Shown: one piece after another, positions 6,615-21,219 of the stretch
How positions within the stretch are numbered: position 1 is the first letter of the stretch
Layout: every line of letters starts with the position of its first letter
Source: a virus
IMG/VR virus record: IMGVR_UViG_3300031886_000050
Location: 1 to 22,381 of that record
Length of the DNA stretch: 22,381 nt
Direction: 5' to 3' (one strand)
Program-made: the position numbers and the translations under genes
Notes under the pieces: generated by a model
Database searches by the model: none
Seen by the model: the letters and a program-made list of their open reading frames with translations, nothing else
Told to the model about the DNA's origin: nothing

Positions 6615-6637
6615 TTTCCTATAGGGTTGGGAACAAA
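6615..6637 (-). promoter_or_regulatory. T7-like phage promoter, leftward
   Basis: Read on the minus strand, this 23-bp element has a CCCAACCCTATAGGAAA core and is identical over all 23 positions to the plus-strand element at 21197-21219. Like T7, T3 and SP6 promoters it has a TATA box directly followed by initiating G residues, with a specificity region just upstream. The predicted start is 6619. It points at the packaging genes. The opposite reading (TATAGGG, rightward) also looks promoter-like, but the leftward reading places both copies upstream of genes in the correct direction. Confidence 0.65.
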
Positions 6638-7131: not shown

Positions 7132-7169
7132 CCACACCCGAGCACGTGTGGTTAAACATTAAACTGCTC
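7132..7169 (+). promoter_or_regulatory. H-type pseudoknot leader, copy 1
   Basis: Stem 1 is CCACAC (7132-7137) with GTGTGG (7146-7151). Loop bases GAGCA (7140-7144) pair with TGCTC (7165-7169). The linker is 13 bases and ends AAAC, as in other copies. The ribosome site AGGAG (7186-7190) and the start of the first early gene (7197) follow. Member of the recurrent family described in the findings. Confidence 0.65.
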
Positions 7170-9529: not shown

Positions 9530-9600
9530 TTATTTACAAGATAAACAGCACGTAACGTTTCAAGTTACGTGAACGTTGTTTTGGACGAACCATAAGCAAG

Positions 9601-9937: not shown

Positions 9938-10318
9938 ATGAAACAATTAAAAGTAATAGTTGCAGGTTCTAGAGATTTAACAGGTAGTCATAATTTTATT
10001 AATTGGAATTTAGATTACTTACTGCAACAATATGAACCACAAGATGTATTAATTATTTCAGGTGGTGCTAGAGGTGTCGATAAATGTGGCGAAGTATATG
10101 CAAAACGAAACGACATCAAGTGCAAAGTATTTCCTGCCGATTGGAATAAACACGGTAAACGGGCAGGCTATATCAGAAATGAGCAAATGGCAGATAATGC
10201 AAATGCTTTAATCGCTTTTTGGGACGGTCATAGTAGAGGTACTAAACATATGATTGATATCGCAAAAGCAAGAGATATAAACACAAAGGTCATAATATCA
10301 CCATCAGTTAATATGTGA
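9938..10318 (+). CDS. DUF2493/SLOG (YspA-like) nucleotide-binding protein
   Basis: 126 residues of the DUF2493 family, part of the SLOG superfamily of Rossmann-like proteins that bind or cleave nucleotides and nucleotide-derived ligands. Characteristic motifs are GSR (residues 10-12), SGGARGVD (41-48), the ADW triplet (67-69), AGYIRNEQM (76-84) and FWDGHSRGT (94-102). Phage copies are common but their function is unproved; related SLOG proteins sense or process signalling nucleotides, so an anti-defence or NAD-related role is possible. The 3' end, including the stop codon, forms one arm of a 14-bp hairpin. Confidence 0.9.
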   Translation: MKQLKVIVAGSRDLTGSHNFINWNLDYLLQQYEPQDVLIISGGARGVDKCGEVYAKRNDIKCKVFPADWNKHGKRAGYIRNEQMADNANALIAFWDGHSRGTKHMIDIAKARDINTKVIISPSVNM

Positions 10319-10329
10319 TGGTGATATTA
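10293..10329 (+). other. 14-bp perfect hairpin spanning the DUF2493 stop codon
   Basis: TAATATCACCATCA (10293-10306) pairs with TGATGGTGATATTA (10316-10329) around a 9-base loop. The stop codon TGA (10316-10318) opens the 3' arm. No T tract follows, so it is not a classical terminator. It may be a 3' stability element or a processing site. Confidence 0.6.
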
Positions 10330-10350
10330 AATAGGCGAACTCCAAGCACA

Positions 10351-10360
10351 ATAAGGGTGC
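10351..10360 (+). repeat. ATAAGGGTGC repeat, copy b
   Basis: Second exact copy of the decamer, 22 bases after the DUF2493 hairpin. No gene follows for over a kilobase, so here it cannot be a gene-proximal ribosome or start element. The flank forms GCAC/GTGC around it. Confidence 0.5.
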
Positions 10361-10540
10361 GATCAACAATTTCATATCTACTAAGATTGACCTTCTTAGT
10401 AGTCTCTCCAAACATAGTTAATGCCTTAGACGCTGTTTAATTTTAGTTGCTACTCCCAAAAAGTATCTTATTAAAATATAAAACAGAAAATTTAAAAAGA
10501 GATGGGGTTACGAATGTAGTTAAAAGATTGACTATGTTAT

Positions 10541-10584
10541 AGTCCTGAGCAAGACTGTTGCTGTAAAGCAATAAAAAAGGCTCA
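10541..10584 (+). promoter_or_regulatory. H-type pseudoknot with inserted GNRA hairpin, copy 4
   Basis: Stem 1 AGTC/GACT (10541-10544/10553-10556), extendable by one A-U and one G-U pair. Loop TGAGC (10546-10550) pairs with GCTCA (10580-10584). A hairpin TTGCT-GTAA-AGCAA (10558-10571) is inserted in the linker, and its GTAA loop is a GNRA tetraloop. A competing TGAG just downstream (about 10593) could pair with the same CTCA. Confidence 0.55.
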
Positions 10585-10897
10585 CTTAATTATGAGAAAG
10601 GTTCAGGCTAAAACTACCAATTTCTGGTTATATAACTAATATAATTCTGAACTATATGTTCACTAACAGTAACTGTAATAATATGATTAAAGCCAAGAAT
10701 AAAACCGCTTGCTTAGTGCTACCGGTCATCATATTAAAGCGTAGTCCTTTCTCACCAAACTCAAACTATACTAGATATCGTATACGGGTATATGTTTGAT
10801 ATCTATTCAGTCTTAGAGATTCTCACGTGGGTGCTGAATAGGTTGTCGCTATTAACACTTGTGGGCGACAAAATTAAACTGCTCATTTAATATGACT

Positions 10898-10974
10898 GTC
10901 CTGAGTAAGACTCTAGTGAAATTGATTAAACGAAATAACTAATCAATGGATACTTAAGACAAAGTAATCACTAG
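10898..10974 (+). promoter_or_regulatory. Elaborated pseudoknot, copy 5
   Basis: Short stem GTC/GAC (10898-10900/10909-10911) presents TGAGTA (10902-10907), which pairs with TACTTA (10951-10956; five Watson-Crick pairs and one G-U). The partner differs from the usual TGCTCA yet still pairs. Between them lies an 8-bp hairpin (10921-10928/10940-10947), and a 7-bp helix CTAGTGA/TCACTAG (10913-10919/10968-10974) encloses that hairpin and the 3' pairing arm. Confidence 0.5.
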
Positions 10975-11109
10975 GAACAACAATGTAACGGTTACTATAT
11001 TGCTTTACGAGATACTAACCACTATATGCGTTAGGAATGTGCAAATGCCTCTAGGAGTTTATCTCTAGGAGGAAATGGTCGTCCGAGTGTATGATGTAAA
11101 GAAATAGTA

Positions 11110-11199
11110 ATGAGAAGTGAAATAACAGTTTGGCAGTCTGAGTACTACGCTAGGAAACACTTGGAAGAATACGGCATAGATACCTTATCGGTTAGGTAA
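11110..11199 (+). CDS. Possible 29-aa ORF inside the structured region
   Basis: The frame begins MRSEITVWQSEYYARKHLEE and ends DTLSVR. Amino-acid composition is protein-like, but there is no good ribosome site, and the ORF overlaps potential RNA helices. A 10-codon frame (11075-11107) with AGGAGG only two bases before its ATG ends immediately upstream. Both may be chance. Confidence 0.25.
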   Translation: MRSEITVWQSEYYARKHLEEYGIDTLSVR

Positions 11200-11428
11200 G
11201 GTTTAACAATCTACTATGAATCAACCGAAAAAACTGCTACTTTAATTACTGATTAAACCTAAGGAGGTCGCAAATCTCACAACAAGTGAAGATATAGTAA
11301 TTAATAAACAATCAAAAGAGAAGGATAAGGCAAAGACACTCATTAAAAAGTCTTGAAGTCAAACCTTGAAAGCGTCTTTAAGGACTGGTCGAACACATAG
11401 TTACCATATCCAAAACGTTAGTCTTTCA

Positions 11429-11456
11429 CAACCCGAGTAAGTTGAAAAACTGCTCG
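11429..11456 (+). promoter_or_regulatory. H-type pseudoknot leader with compensatory change, copy 6
   Basis: Stem 1 CAAC/GTTG (11429-11432/11441-11444); loop CGAGTA (11434-11439) pairs with TGCTCG (11451-11456) across the 6-base linker AAAAAC. Relative to the TGAG/CTCA copies, both pairing partners have changed (T to C and A to G), preserving the pair. AGAGG and the start codon at 11483 follow. Confidence 0.7.
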
Positions 11457-11482
11457 CCTAATTTAATAAAAGAGGAAAACAA

Positions 11483-11665
11483 ATGAATCCACATTTAAAA
11501 TATGATGATGAAGTATGCACTATAAGTGAACCTTCACAAATGTCAAACGAGGAACTAAATACAATAATAAGATTGATACCACACGCTTCAACAAGACAAA
11601 CATCAATCATAGAAGGGCAAATACAGATACACAAACAACTAAATAAAGCAAATGAAAAGAAGTGA
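11483..11665 (+). CDS. Hypothetical 60-aa protein, paralogue-like to 12140-12412
   Basis: First gene of the small-gene array, behind a pseudoknot leader, with an AGAGG ribosome site. Residues about 22-60 (EELNTIIRLIPHASTRQTS onward to the C-terminus) resemble residues 4-39 of the protein at 12140 (DELNSITGLIRSATHKQLG onward), in spacing and in the pattern of helical hydrophobics. It lacks that protein's C-terminal SH3-like part. It overlaps the next gene by 14 bases. Function unknown. Confidence 0.7.
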   Translation: MNPHLKYDDEVCTISEPSQMSNEELNTIIRLIPHASTRQTSIIEGQIQIHKQLNKANEKK

Positions 11666-17933: not shown

Positions 17934-17954
17934 AAATCCAAACAAGGAGGAATC

Positions 17955-20408
17955 GTGGAAAAAAACAACATATTTATACTTTCAGACATACTAGAATATA
18001 AAATATCTTCTAGAGGAAACAACCGTTCTATTGCTGCTAAAATTTTTAGAGAAAATAATTGCACTACAAATGATTACAGAACCCCCAAGATACTTACAAA
18101 TGTATTTAATTTTCTTATAGCAAAATTTAAACAGAATGAAGGCGTTCTTAAATTAACTAATACATCTAAACGTACTGGTGATATTGCACTTGATATACTT
18201 AACGCAAAAAAGGACAATCCAAGTGATGCCATAGCAATAATGACAGGTGATTTTATAATCGACATGCTTCTAGAAGAAGAATATCTAACACTTCATAGAG
18301 AAGAATACTTTAGAGTAGAGGAAGTTTTATACAAAAAAACAAAGAAGAAAATAAACTTTAACCCTTATACTCTAGAAATTGGTAAAAATTTTCCTAATAT
18401 AAACATAAATCCATCAGAAAGAACTGGTATATCCCTTCGTAGATATGCTCCTTGGTACAAAGGTAGAAGAAAAATCGAAAATATTTCAGAAAAACTCATA
18501 AAATCCAATGTAGATGTAGATCAATCATTAGATGAAACAGAATTTATGAAATCAATAACATTTTTAGAAAATGTCAAATGGACTATCAATTCAGATGTTG
18601 CTGCAATTAGCGATAAATTAAAAGCTGCACTTATAAATACTATAATTGAACTACACGACTTTGAAAACAATAAAGTTCTATTTGATACTATAGATATCAG
18701 AAGAGATAATATAAACAAAAACTATAAAGGTATAGATCTATACAGAAATGGGGACATATTTGAACCACATTTAGGCAACTCCAGTGCTGTTCCTATCATC
18801 GAAAAAGCACTAGAACAGCAAACAAAACGCTTAAATAGGCTAAAAAACAAAGAAAATATAGACAAAACCAAGAAAATTCTCCATAAACTACATGTTTTGT
18901 ACAATATAGAGAACAGAAGATGGACAGATAAGCAGTTTTGTCTAAGAACTCAGTCACAAGCCATGAGAAACAAGGCTATATTGGAGACAATTAGTGGCGA
19001 TCAAGAGAATCCCGGCTGGCTTGGATATAATTTCTTTCAGTCGATGTATTTGGATTATAGGGGGCGAATTTACAATAGAGATCCATACTTCAGCTATCAA
19101 TCCAATGATTTGGTTAGAGGGCATTTCTTATTTGCAGATAAAAAAGAAGTTACACAAGAAGGTGCTGAATATACTTTTATACATATTGCCTGTTCTTACA
19201 ATCAAACATATACAATAAAAGAAATCAAGAAAGCTTCTTGGCTTGAGCTTGATTACGTAACAGAATTAGAAGCAGATGGACTAACAGATATATCAGTAGA
19301 TAAAATGGGAATCAATGATAAACATAATTGGACAATTGAACATATAGAAATGCTTCTAGATATAGCAGAAGATCCAATTAAACATATAAATATTTGGATG
19401 AATGCAGAAAAGCCTTGGGTATTCTTGTCATTATGTTATGAGATTGGTGGAATTATAGGCTCTGCCCTGACCGGAGAGCCCTATTATTCAGGAATGCCGA
19501 TATCAATTGATGGCGTTAACAATGGGACTCAACATTTATCAGCAATGTCAAGAGATGAAAAGGCAGGACTTCTCGTTGGCTTGATACCTTTAGAGATACC
19601 TAAAGATTTCTATTTAAAAATAGGCAAAGAGATATTAAAAATAAATGAAAACAATGAAATAAATAATAAACTAAAGAAAATACCAATGAAGTTAGTACGT
19701 AAAGGCATCAGTAAAAGAGGCTCAATGACACGTGCCTATGACGCTGGCTCAAATAAAATTGGGCAAATAATATATCAAGACTCATATGATGCAGGCATAA
19801 CATCAAAATATAAAATAAATAAATCAGATTGTAGGCAGCTAGGTAAAGACTTAGTAAATGCTTACGACAAAGTTTGTCCCGGACCTGTAATGATAAAGAA
19901 ATATTTACAATCTATTGTTAAACATAAAATACAAGAAATGGAAATGAAAGATATTTCATGGCACTCTCCATCAGGTTTTCCTGTACTCACACAAAAGTGG
20001 GTAGCACGTAAAAAAATATGTTATGGTAGTTTACAGGGCAAAACTATTGGTCATGTGTATCTGGAGATAACAGATTTTCCATCATTATCAGATCATTTGT
20101 CAGCAATTGGTGCTAACTGGGTTCATTCTTATGATGCTGCTCATATGTGTCTTACTGTAAATAAACTGGCAGAAAAGGATATAAAATCATTTGGAGCTAT
20201 ACATGATAGCTTTAGTGTACATGCTTCAGATGTACCACTTCTCATTCAAACAACTAAAGAAACATTTATATCACTGTATGATAAAGATATCTTTTCAGAA
20301 ATGAGACAAGAAATAATATATAACGACAAATTATTTCAAGATGAAGAACCAGAGCTAGGTAACTTAGACCTAAATGAAATATTAAAATCAAACTTTTTCT
20401 TTTGCTAG
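17955..20408 (+). CDS. T7-like single-subunit DNA-directed RNA polymerase
   Basis: 817 residues (T7 RNA polymerase has 883). It transcribes phage promoters independently of the host enzyme. Visible landmarks: LDYRGRIYNRDP (about residues 366-377, matching T7 DWRGRVY); motif A SIDGVNNGTQHLSAM with catalytic Asp519; motif B VRKGISKRGSMTRAYD (581-596) with the nucleotide-binding Lys587 and Tyr595; motif C AIHDSF with catalytic Asp751. The C-terminal NFFFC resembles the hydrophobic foot FAFA of T7. T7 has Tyr-Gly at the end of motif B; here it is Tyr-Asp, as I recall in some marine podovirus enzymes. I start at GTG 17955, five bases after AAGGAGG; the in-frame ATG at 17805 lies inside the terminator hairpin and is rejected. 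Confidence 0.96.
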   Translation: MEKNNIFILSDILEYKISSRGNNRSIAAKIFRENNCTTNDYRTPKILTNVFNFLIAKFKQNEGVLKLTNTSKRTGDIALDILNAKKDNPSDAIAIMTGDFIIDMLLEEEYLTLHREEYFRVEEVLYKKTKKKINFNPYTLEIGKNFPNININPSERTGISLRRYAPWYKGRRKIENISEKLIKSNVDVDQSLDETEFMKSITFLENVKWTINSDVAAISDKLKAALINTIIELHDFENNKVLFDTIDIRRDNINKNYKGIDLYRNGDIFEPHLGNSSAVPIIEKALEQQTKRLNRLKNKENIDKTKKILHKLHVLYNIENRRWTDKQFCLRTQSQAMRNKAILETISGDQENPGWLGYNFFQSMYLDYRGRIYNRDPYFSYQSNDLVRGHFLFADKKEVTQEGAEYTFIHIACSYNQTYTIKEIKKASWLELDYVTELEADGLTDISVDKMGINDKHNWTIEHIEMLLDIAEDPIKHINIWMNAEKPWVFLSLCYEIGGIIGSALTGEPYYSGMPISIDGVNNGTQHLSAMSRDEKAGLLVGLIPLEIPKDFYLKIGKEILKINENNEINNKLKKIPMKLVRKGISKRGSMTRAYDAGSNKIGQIIYQDSYDAGITSKYKINKSDCRQLGKDLVNAYDKVCPGPVMIKKYLQSIVKHKIQEMEMKDISWHSPSGFPVLTQKWVARKKICYGSLQGKTIGHVYLEITDFPSLSDHLSAIGANWVHSYDAAHMCLTVNKLAEKDIKSFGAIHDSFSVHASDVPLLIQTTKETFISLYDKDIFSEMRQEIIYNDKLFQDEEPELGNLDLNEILKSNFFFC

Positions 20409-21196: not shown

Positions 21197-21219
21197 TTTG
21201 TTCCCAACCCTATAGGAAA
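21197..21219 (+). promoter_or_regulatory. T7-like phage promoter, rightward
   Basis: 23-bp element with core CCCAACCCTATAGGAAA, beginning right after the DUF3310 stop codon. It is identical over its whole length to the minus-strand element at 6637-6615. TATA followed by initiating GG (predicted start 21215) and a conserved upstream specificity region fit T7-family promoters. It would drive the SSB-like and helicase genes, the expected class II position downstream of the polymerase. Confidence 0.7.

Follow-up and report, generated by a model that had tools for sequence, protein, structure and literature searches.

Very few families of large RNAs are known from phages, and their functions are unknown. 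GOLLD is a large RNA found in phages; its function is unknown, it has many helices and pseudoknots, and one part of it is conserved and another variable (PMC12286853). ROOL, whose model comprises 574 positions, is a large phage RNA with several pseudoknots that encodes no protein. In phage ICP1 the most abundant transcript, of about 800 nt, originates from an orf-less space of about 1 kb between gp139 and gp140 (PMC7567579). The RNA analysed here resembles the GOLLD/ROOL kind in that it is a long phage RNA without coding function in which helices covary and pseudoknots are present. It has the large size, the many helices and the pseudoknots in common with GOLLD, but appears here as a modular leader in front of a gene array. 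Size, pseudoknots and the lack of a protein also connect it with ROOL, and like the ICP1 region it is an orf-less phage stretch of about 1 kb. However, the ICP1 region has no sequence similarity to this RNA and contains neither the hairpin D6 nor the pseudoknot PK-A, which are described below.

No catalogued family is matched by this RNA. A scan of the region against Rfam yielded only chance matches, at the gathering score as well as at relaxed E-values. The GOLLD model (RF02032) found none of eight records (the window and seven relatives) at E <= 10. The ROOL model (RF03087) was negative for all eight records as well, a search which is weak if taken alone because its controls gave no signal either. 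According to ARAGORN there is no tRNA in the window, L025, L026 and L050, so that the frequent but non-obligatory tRNA association of GOLLD is absent from these four. T-arms in relatives had suggested a tRNA or a tmRNA, but this reading was rejected, since ARAGORN was negative and the resemblance to tmRNA is confined to the T-arm, with 17 matching nt in L077. Group I introns, group II introns and tmRNA gave no match with the Rfam or ARAGORN models. In the open-licence papers searched, neither PK-A nor this RNA is described.

The window, i.e. the whole stretch of DNA analysed, is a 22.4-kb virus record (22,381 nt) of a marine-type phage which carries an SU10-type portal gene and a T7-like RNA polymerase gene at 17943–20408. 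The closest relative of this polymerase among cultured phages, with an identity of only about 25 %, is that of Roseobacter phage CRP-7, which also leads the portal matches (42 % identity). Scans of viral contigs uncovered relatives with polymerase identities of 44–48 %, 56 % and about 63–69 %, and scans with neighbouring genes added more. Two of them, L025 and L026, emerged from a blastn comparison of the region with these relatives (68–72 % over about 540–570 nt), together with several shorter pieces in an order changed with respect to the window. Further homologues were obtained from the reading of neighbouring genes and from scans, namely the compact forms L050, L175, L176 and L178 as well as L077, L078 and L079. 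These nine relatives carry the signature hairpin D6, which results in ten loci including the window. Defined by a single D6 and a gene-free stretch with PK-A before an array of small genes, the D6-bearing phage leader RNA family was found at all ten. A blastn search of the region against annotated phages gave no match, and against relatives with a polymerase identity of 44–47 % nothing convincing; an unrelated structured stretch is present there. In more distant relatives a different conserved non-coding stretch (AACTAAGTAGACTGTATTGAATCTTCACAG...CTACTTAGTTA, with repeated CCTCTATAAGGACACAATAGGAATT) was noticed in L009 (11926–12589) and on the minus strand of L017 (13420–12700). The window itself also contains a perfect 23-nt inverted repeat, TTTCCTATAGGGTTGGGAACAAA, at 6615–6637 and 21197–21219, the arms of which are 14.6 kb apart.

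The window and its six best relatives share one layout: an SSB gene (sometimes followed by one or two genes), usually a hairpin, the motif AATAAGGGT, the RNA, a Shine-Dalgarno sequence and the first small gene. The length of the RNA varies between about 0.4 and about 1.1 kb across the phages, the one of the window being the largest (about 1.1 kb). The gene on the 3' side differs; a gene of 57–69 aa is present in the window, L025 and L026, and a 105-aa type in L050, L175, L176 and L178.

The original prediction, made from the sequence of the window alone, had described 10319–11482 as a gene-free and highly structured region and as a candidate large non-coding RNA that could be assigned neither to GOLLD nor to ROOL. 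The comparative data support a large, structured and conserved non-coding phage RNA that matches neither of the two. Between the stop codon of a YspA-like gene (10318) and the start of a 60-aa gene (11483) there is no ORF of at least 60 aa, with the one exception of a minus-strand frame overlapping only the very end, and the longest stop-to-stop frame has 67 codons. The two objections foreseen at that time, that helices might not be conserved or that proteins might be encoded here in relatives, do not apply; the helices are kept and no protein is encoded at this position. As a statistical statement the term "highly structured" is weak. Eight non-overlapping perfect stems of at least 7 bp stand against 4.4 ± 1.8 in shuffled sequences (1 of 60 shuffles reaches eight), and equal-length stretches elsewhere in the window hold 0 to 13 of them. 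The mean local folding-energy z-score is −0.90 inside the region and −0.96 outside, and a 1000-nt piece of the region reached −1.8. As a detector of structure, energy z-scores no lower than those of the surroundings were uninformative here, and the region stands out because of covariation and conservation and not because of its folding energy. It is a genuine conserved RNA locus, the support for which is comparative and not energetic.

The features described in the following lie on the plus strand of the window. A 14-bp hairpin (10293–10329) covers the stop codon of the YspA-like gene, and its arms (10293–10306 with 10316–10329) are exact, as predicted. The 120 nt from 10280 onwards have a local folding z-score of −5.5, and in L025, L026, L050 and L176, too, a strong hairpin stands 5' of the promoter-like site. 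Possibly this hairpin is the end or a processing site of the upstream transcript. The promoter-like site follows at 10333–10360, belongs to a 28-nt repeat family (D2) and ends in AATAAGGGTGC. A longer repeat which includes the motif occurs at 9583, 10333 and 13080 of the window, and ATAAGGGTGC has five matches where 0.84 are expected. In this clade the strict motif AATAAGGGT lies on the sense strand, mostly in intergenic positions, and is found mainly before the RNA and before the RNA polymerase gene, there often as a tandem pair. Such tandem AATAAGGGT-like sites are located just 5' of the polymerase gene in the window (17859/17901), L023 (486/507), L034 (2606/2628) and L050 (6775/6789), which suggests that the polymerase may drive its own gene. 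The AATAAGGGTGC site is best regarded as a candidate promoter of the phage T7-like RNA polymerase. The RNA itself more likely begins behind the promoter-like repeat at about 10350–10360 than at 10319, and would end near 11460, ahead of the Shine-Dalgarno sequence at about 11472. A 9-bp hairpin in the 5' part (10378–10402), identified by the stem count, occurs only in the window; six relatives carry another hairpin there, D1, with six pairs changed on both sides among five distinct sequences, and this one is missing in the window.

Three members of a pseudoknot family had been recognised in the region, and all three were confirmed. The common form of this pseudoknot, PK-A, is NNN-C-UGAGYA-N-N'N'N', followed by AAAC-UGCUCA. 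Copy 1 (10541–10584) consists of stem S1 (10541–10544/10553–10556) and stem S2 (10546–10550/10580–10584), the latter with five pairs, and the likewise confirmed GUAA-capped hairpin (TTGCT-GTAA-AGCAA, 10558–10571) is situated in its last loop. Its position matches the self-contained PK-A of L025, L026, L050, L175, L176 and L178. Copy 2 (10880–10911) has a circularly permuted strand order and would pair, following the family consensus, at 10880–10885/10902–10907 and 10898–10900/10909–10911; this arrangement recurs in L025 and L026. Copy 3 (11429–11456) adjoins the Shine-Dalgarno sequence and comprises S1 (11429–11432/11441–11444) and S2 (11434–11439/11451–11456), and it ends in a C-G pair instead of the U-A pair of most copies. 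Four other copies in the window were noted at 7135, 12940, 14394 and 21917, and no copy of the window matches an Rfam family.

In the relatives 31 intergenic copies of PK-A compare with 5 in ORFs. S1 occurs in the variants GTC/GAC, GTG/CAC, GAC/GTC, TTC/GAA, ACC/GGT and AAC/GTT. For S2, 171 of 186 pairs were observed against a shuffled mean of 165.5 and maximum of 171, a modest excess, as the motif hardly varies; moreover, letters able to pair were favoured by the pattern used for the search. Beyond these, at least 120 further stretches of viral contigs and 47 stretches of genome assemblies contain PK-A (L180–L259, L300–L346). A stop codon is located within 40 nt upstream in 101 of 164 cases (182 listed copies from other phages). 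Among the matches listed, 28 of 179 have a tRNA within the next 250 nt, compared with 49 of 1585 controls, the control windows differing in some respects from the PK-A windows, and 26 of these 28 tRNAs, most often tRNA-Asp, sit 4–14 nt behind the pseudoknot. The distance from stop codon to tRNA is mostly 38–53 nt with PK-A in between and spreads over about 0–163 nt without it. Because of this placement behind stop codons and before tRNAs, PK-A can be read as a barrier to RNA decay that would leave a protected 3' end; a barrier to 3'–5' exonucleases would be the simplest explanation of where it is found. RNase P cutting at an adjacent tRNA would then make the pseudoknot the 3' end of the upstream mRNA.

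The leader of T4 gene 32, a phage mRNA, contains a compact pseudoknot of the H type, the first loop of which is very short, and through this pseudoknot the gene is autoregulated. PK-A is similarly compact but differs in sequence, and it lies behind many genes and before tRNAs instead of forming one operator. In tobamovirus RNAs a row of pseudoknots, the upstream pseudoknot domain, adjoins a tRNA-like structure. This resembles the succession of PK-A and a T-arm-like element in L050, L176 and L178, where the element takes the place of the tRNA shortly behind PK-A; the tobamovirus structure, however, forms the 3' end of a plant virus RNA, whereas the phage elements are internal to a leader, and the window is without a T-arm. 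The T-arm-like hairpins (GTGGGTTCGAATCCCAC or a one-letter variant), which have no recognisable tRNA around them, are confined to L050 (982–998), L176 (5669–5685), L178 (5728–5744) and L077 (5849–5865 and 6004–6020), and a hairpin with a GACG loop precedes in most cases.

The conserved kernel is composed of PK-A, D4, D5 and D6. Domain D4 (10593–10754) is closed by an outer helix (10593–10601/10746–10754) and an inner helix (10613–10617/10741–10745) and contains the conserved GCTAAAAC. In a hand alignment two of nine outer and two of five inner pairs are changed on both sides, with all positions paired; from L178 the domain is cleanly absent. Inside D4 lies a second pseudoknot, PK-B (10690–10732; S1 10694–10697/10708–10711, S2 10704–10707/10723–10726), the S1 of which changes from CAAG/CTTG to CAGG/CCTG in L077 and a dozen other contigs (hand alignment). 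PK-B alone was seen inside a GGGGAGT/ACTCCCC-type stem in other viral contigs (L158, L160–L162, L164–L169, L172); in the T4-like contig L166, the one examined, it is placed between SSB and UvsX-like genes. Domain D5 (10755–10798), which the window shares with all of its six best relatives, comprises CACCAAAC and a hairpin formed by AACTATAC and GTATATGTT; in the compact subfamily two of six stem pairs are changed on both sides and all are paired (hand alignment). A hairpin D6' (10804–10840; TATTCAG/CTGAATA with CACGTG in the loop), recognised in the sequence and the same in L025, leads to the signature hairpin D6 (10838–10877), which has a stem at 10843–10849/10865–10871 and an inner CAC/GTG helix at 10856–10858/10861–10863. 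D6 is 98.9 % paired in nine phages, five pairs are changed on both sides, and its covariation amounts to 0.61 compared with 0.21 after shuffling. With the D6 covariance model each of the ten loci gives exactly one copy, and the remaining sequence searched, about 2.4 Mb from other phages and from bacteria, gives none. The domains were aligned singly because a whole-length MAFFT alignment of seven RNAs misaligned the moved modules, which are also the reason why RNAalifold recovered only part of the helices of D4.

Between the kernel and the small-gene array the window shares a 3' core (10909–11238) with L025 and L026, containing GGTTACTATATTGCTTTACGAGATACTAA, TGATGTAAAGAAATAGTAATGAGAAGTGAAA and AACACTTGGAAGAATACGG. 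Over 10864–11250 the identity at aligned positions is 91 % to L026 and 90 % to L025, with a longest exact run of 86 nt; the RNA polymerase gene reaches 71 % and a nearby gene 89 % (L026). The core is thus at least as conserved as the neighbouring coding DNA. No reading frame is preserved in it, and the matches occur in all frames and on both strands, as would be expected if DNA and not a protein were conserved. Covariation is slight here (among three sequences, both-sided changes affect three of the 74 predicted pairs) and conservation is the main support; part of the high identity could stem from recent exchange between phages. An exact-match scan with the core returned L025 and L026 only. 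Within the core a 49-nt module (GTGCAAATGCCTCTAGGAGTTTATCTCTAGGAGGAAATGGTCGTC..., 11035–11083) has copies elsewhere in L025 (3858–3906, 100 % identical) and L026 (3953–4001, 98 %), in both cases in a second non-coding stretch. The core is followed by module iv (11244–11302), a three-helix element with P1 at 11244–11250/11296–11302, which is completely paired in six phages; both partners have changed in 8 of its 17 pairs, and none of 500 shuffles scored as high. Seven phages contain it as a single copy, inside this RNA only in the window and near earlier genes in six relatives. The motif AAGATATAG in module iv raised the thought of a group I intron, which was discarded as no model matched and the motif is part of this different covarying element. 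The Shine-Dalgarno sequence and the start codon of the first small gene (11472–11485) were assigned from the sequence. Little or no comparative support for structure exists for the 5' 190 nt of the RNA in the window and for 11305–11425.

Across the phages the order is promoter, (5' hairpin), pseudoknot, (T-arm-like element), D4, D5, D6 hairpin, pseudoknot and start codon, and modules drop out or move while the order of the remaining ones persists. In the window PK-B and the 49-nt module belong to the RNA; in L025 and L026 they are found in the second non-coding stretch, which a small gene separates from the first. The RNA of the window is the largest because modules placed elsewhere in relatives have joined it. 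This relocation speaks against one rigid architecture of the full 1.1 kb. The RNA is a mosaic of exchangeable modules and not one fixed architecture, which could not be seen by the original prediction.

On balance we favour, with somewhat more confidence than doubt, a modular structured non-coding leader RNA of an uncultivated phage clade that would start at AATAAGGGTGC and combine folded units with exonuclease-barrier pseudoknots. Transcription would begin at about 10350–10360 and run through the region into the small-gene array. The chain would fold successively into PK-A, D4 with PK-B inside, D5, D6, the permuted PK-A, the 3' core, module iv and the last PK-A before the ribosome-binding site. 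Covariation supports the fold for D4, D5 and D6, for module iv and for both pseudoknot families, PK-A and PK-B. Several helices covary, with up to eight pairs changed on both sides and 98–100 % pairing. To judge from the placement of PK-A elsewhere, the compact pseudoknots would block exonucleases, and the leader, or a piece cut near the last pseudoknot, would stay stable while the downstream mRNA is used. The task of the stable D4-D5-D6 kernel might be the binding of a protein, an RNA or a metabolite, or else assembly. Most likely the whole region is a stable leader RNA, which is perhaps cut free.

The choice between such a leader and a free-standing RNA is close. In the latter case a separate, abundant and ornate RNA similar to GOLLD and ROOL, perhaps a homo-oligomer, would be released from the primary transcript, and the downstream genes would be incidental. 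Its size, the many pseudoknots, the missing reading frame and a signature hairpin in every copy would agree with this, as does the precedent of ICP1 with its top transcript of about 800 nt from about 1 kb of orf-less space (PMC7567579). In L050, L175, L176, L178, L077, L078 and L079 the apex of D6 is a self-complementary 8-mer (CACTAGTG, CACATGTG, CTCTAGAG, CTCATGAG), as a kissing dimer needs, and such an apex is possibly a dimer site; in the window (10856–10863), L025 and L026, however, it reads CACTTGTG and is not fully self-complementary. Moreover, modules are gained and lost and the length ranges between about 0.4 and 1.1 kb, neither the GOLLD nor the ROOL model matches, the copies continue into the Shine-Dalgarno sequence and no terminator was found in the window. 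Because of the last two points and the promoter-like motif at the 5' end, a leader, possibly processed, is the simpler reading, and a free-standing RNA appears rather unlikely.

A mere pile-up of independent intergenic elements, such as 3'-end pseudoknots and processing hairpins without a joint function, is similarly doubtful. PK-A, PK-B and module iv do occur alone elsewhere, and in L025 and L026 a gene splits the same modules. Nevertheless, D4, D5 and D6 keep their order and adjacency in the relatives that have them, D6 never appears outside this RNA, and the window, L025 and L026 retain the 3' core as a single block. Control of the translation of the first small gene or operon by a regulatory leader, comparable to a riboswitch or a protein operator, seems improbable. 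It would suit the position directly 5' of the Shine-Dalgarno sequence with a pseudoknot beside it, the aptamer-like conserved unpaired stretches GCTAAAAC, CACCAAAC, GATTAAA and TCNCAAATCT, and, with the autoregulation of T4 gene 32 in mind, the upstream SSB gene; yet the downstream gene differs between relatives, no conserved alternative pairing with the Shine-Dalgarno sequence was seen, and PK-A is found near many unrelated genes and tRNAs. A decayed coding sequence or functionless spacer, with which the ordinary energy z-scores would be compatible, can practically be dismissed, as no frame is conserved, the relatives have no ORF there and helices covary in D6, D4, D5, PK-B and module iv. The preferred reading remains the stable leader, favoured by the continuity with the Shine-Dalgarno sequence and the lack of a terminator.

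For the biology of these phages we tentatively propose an uncatalogued large RNA that evolves by exchange of self-contained pseudoknot and junction modules between transcripts, the pseudoknot module being perhaps a general phage device for the protection of the 3' ends that RNAs acquire when RNase P or another activity cuts them. Between about 0.4 and 1.1 kb in size, the natural variants separate the indispensable modules (D6, D5 and the flanking pseudoknots) from the optional ones, so that structure and function can be tested directly. The widespread PK-A may be a frequent constituent of phage mRNAs that has not yet received a name.
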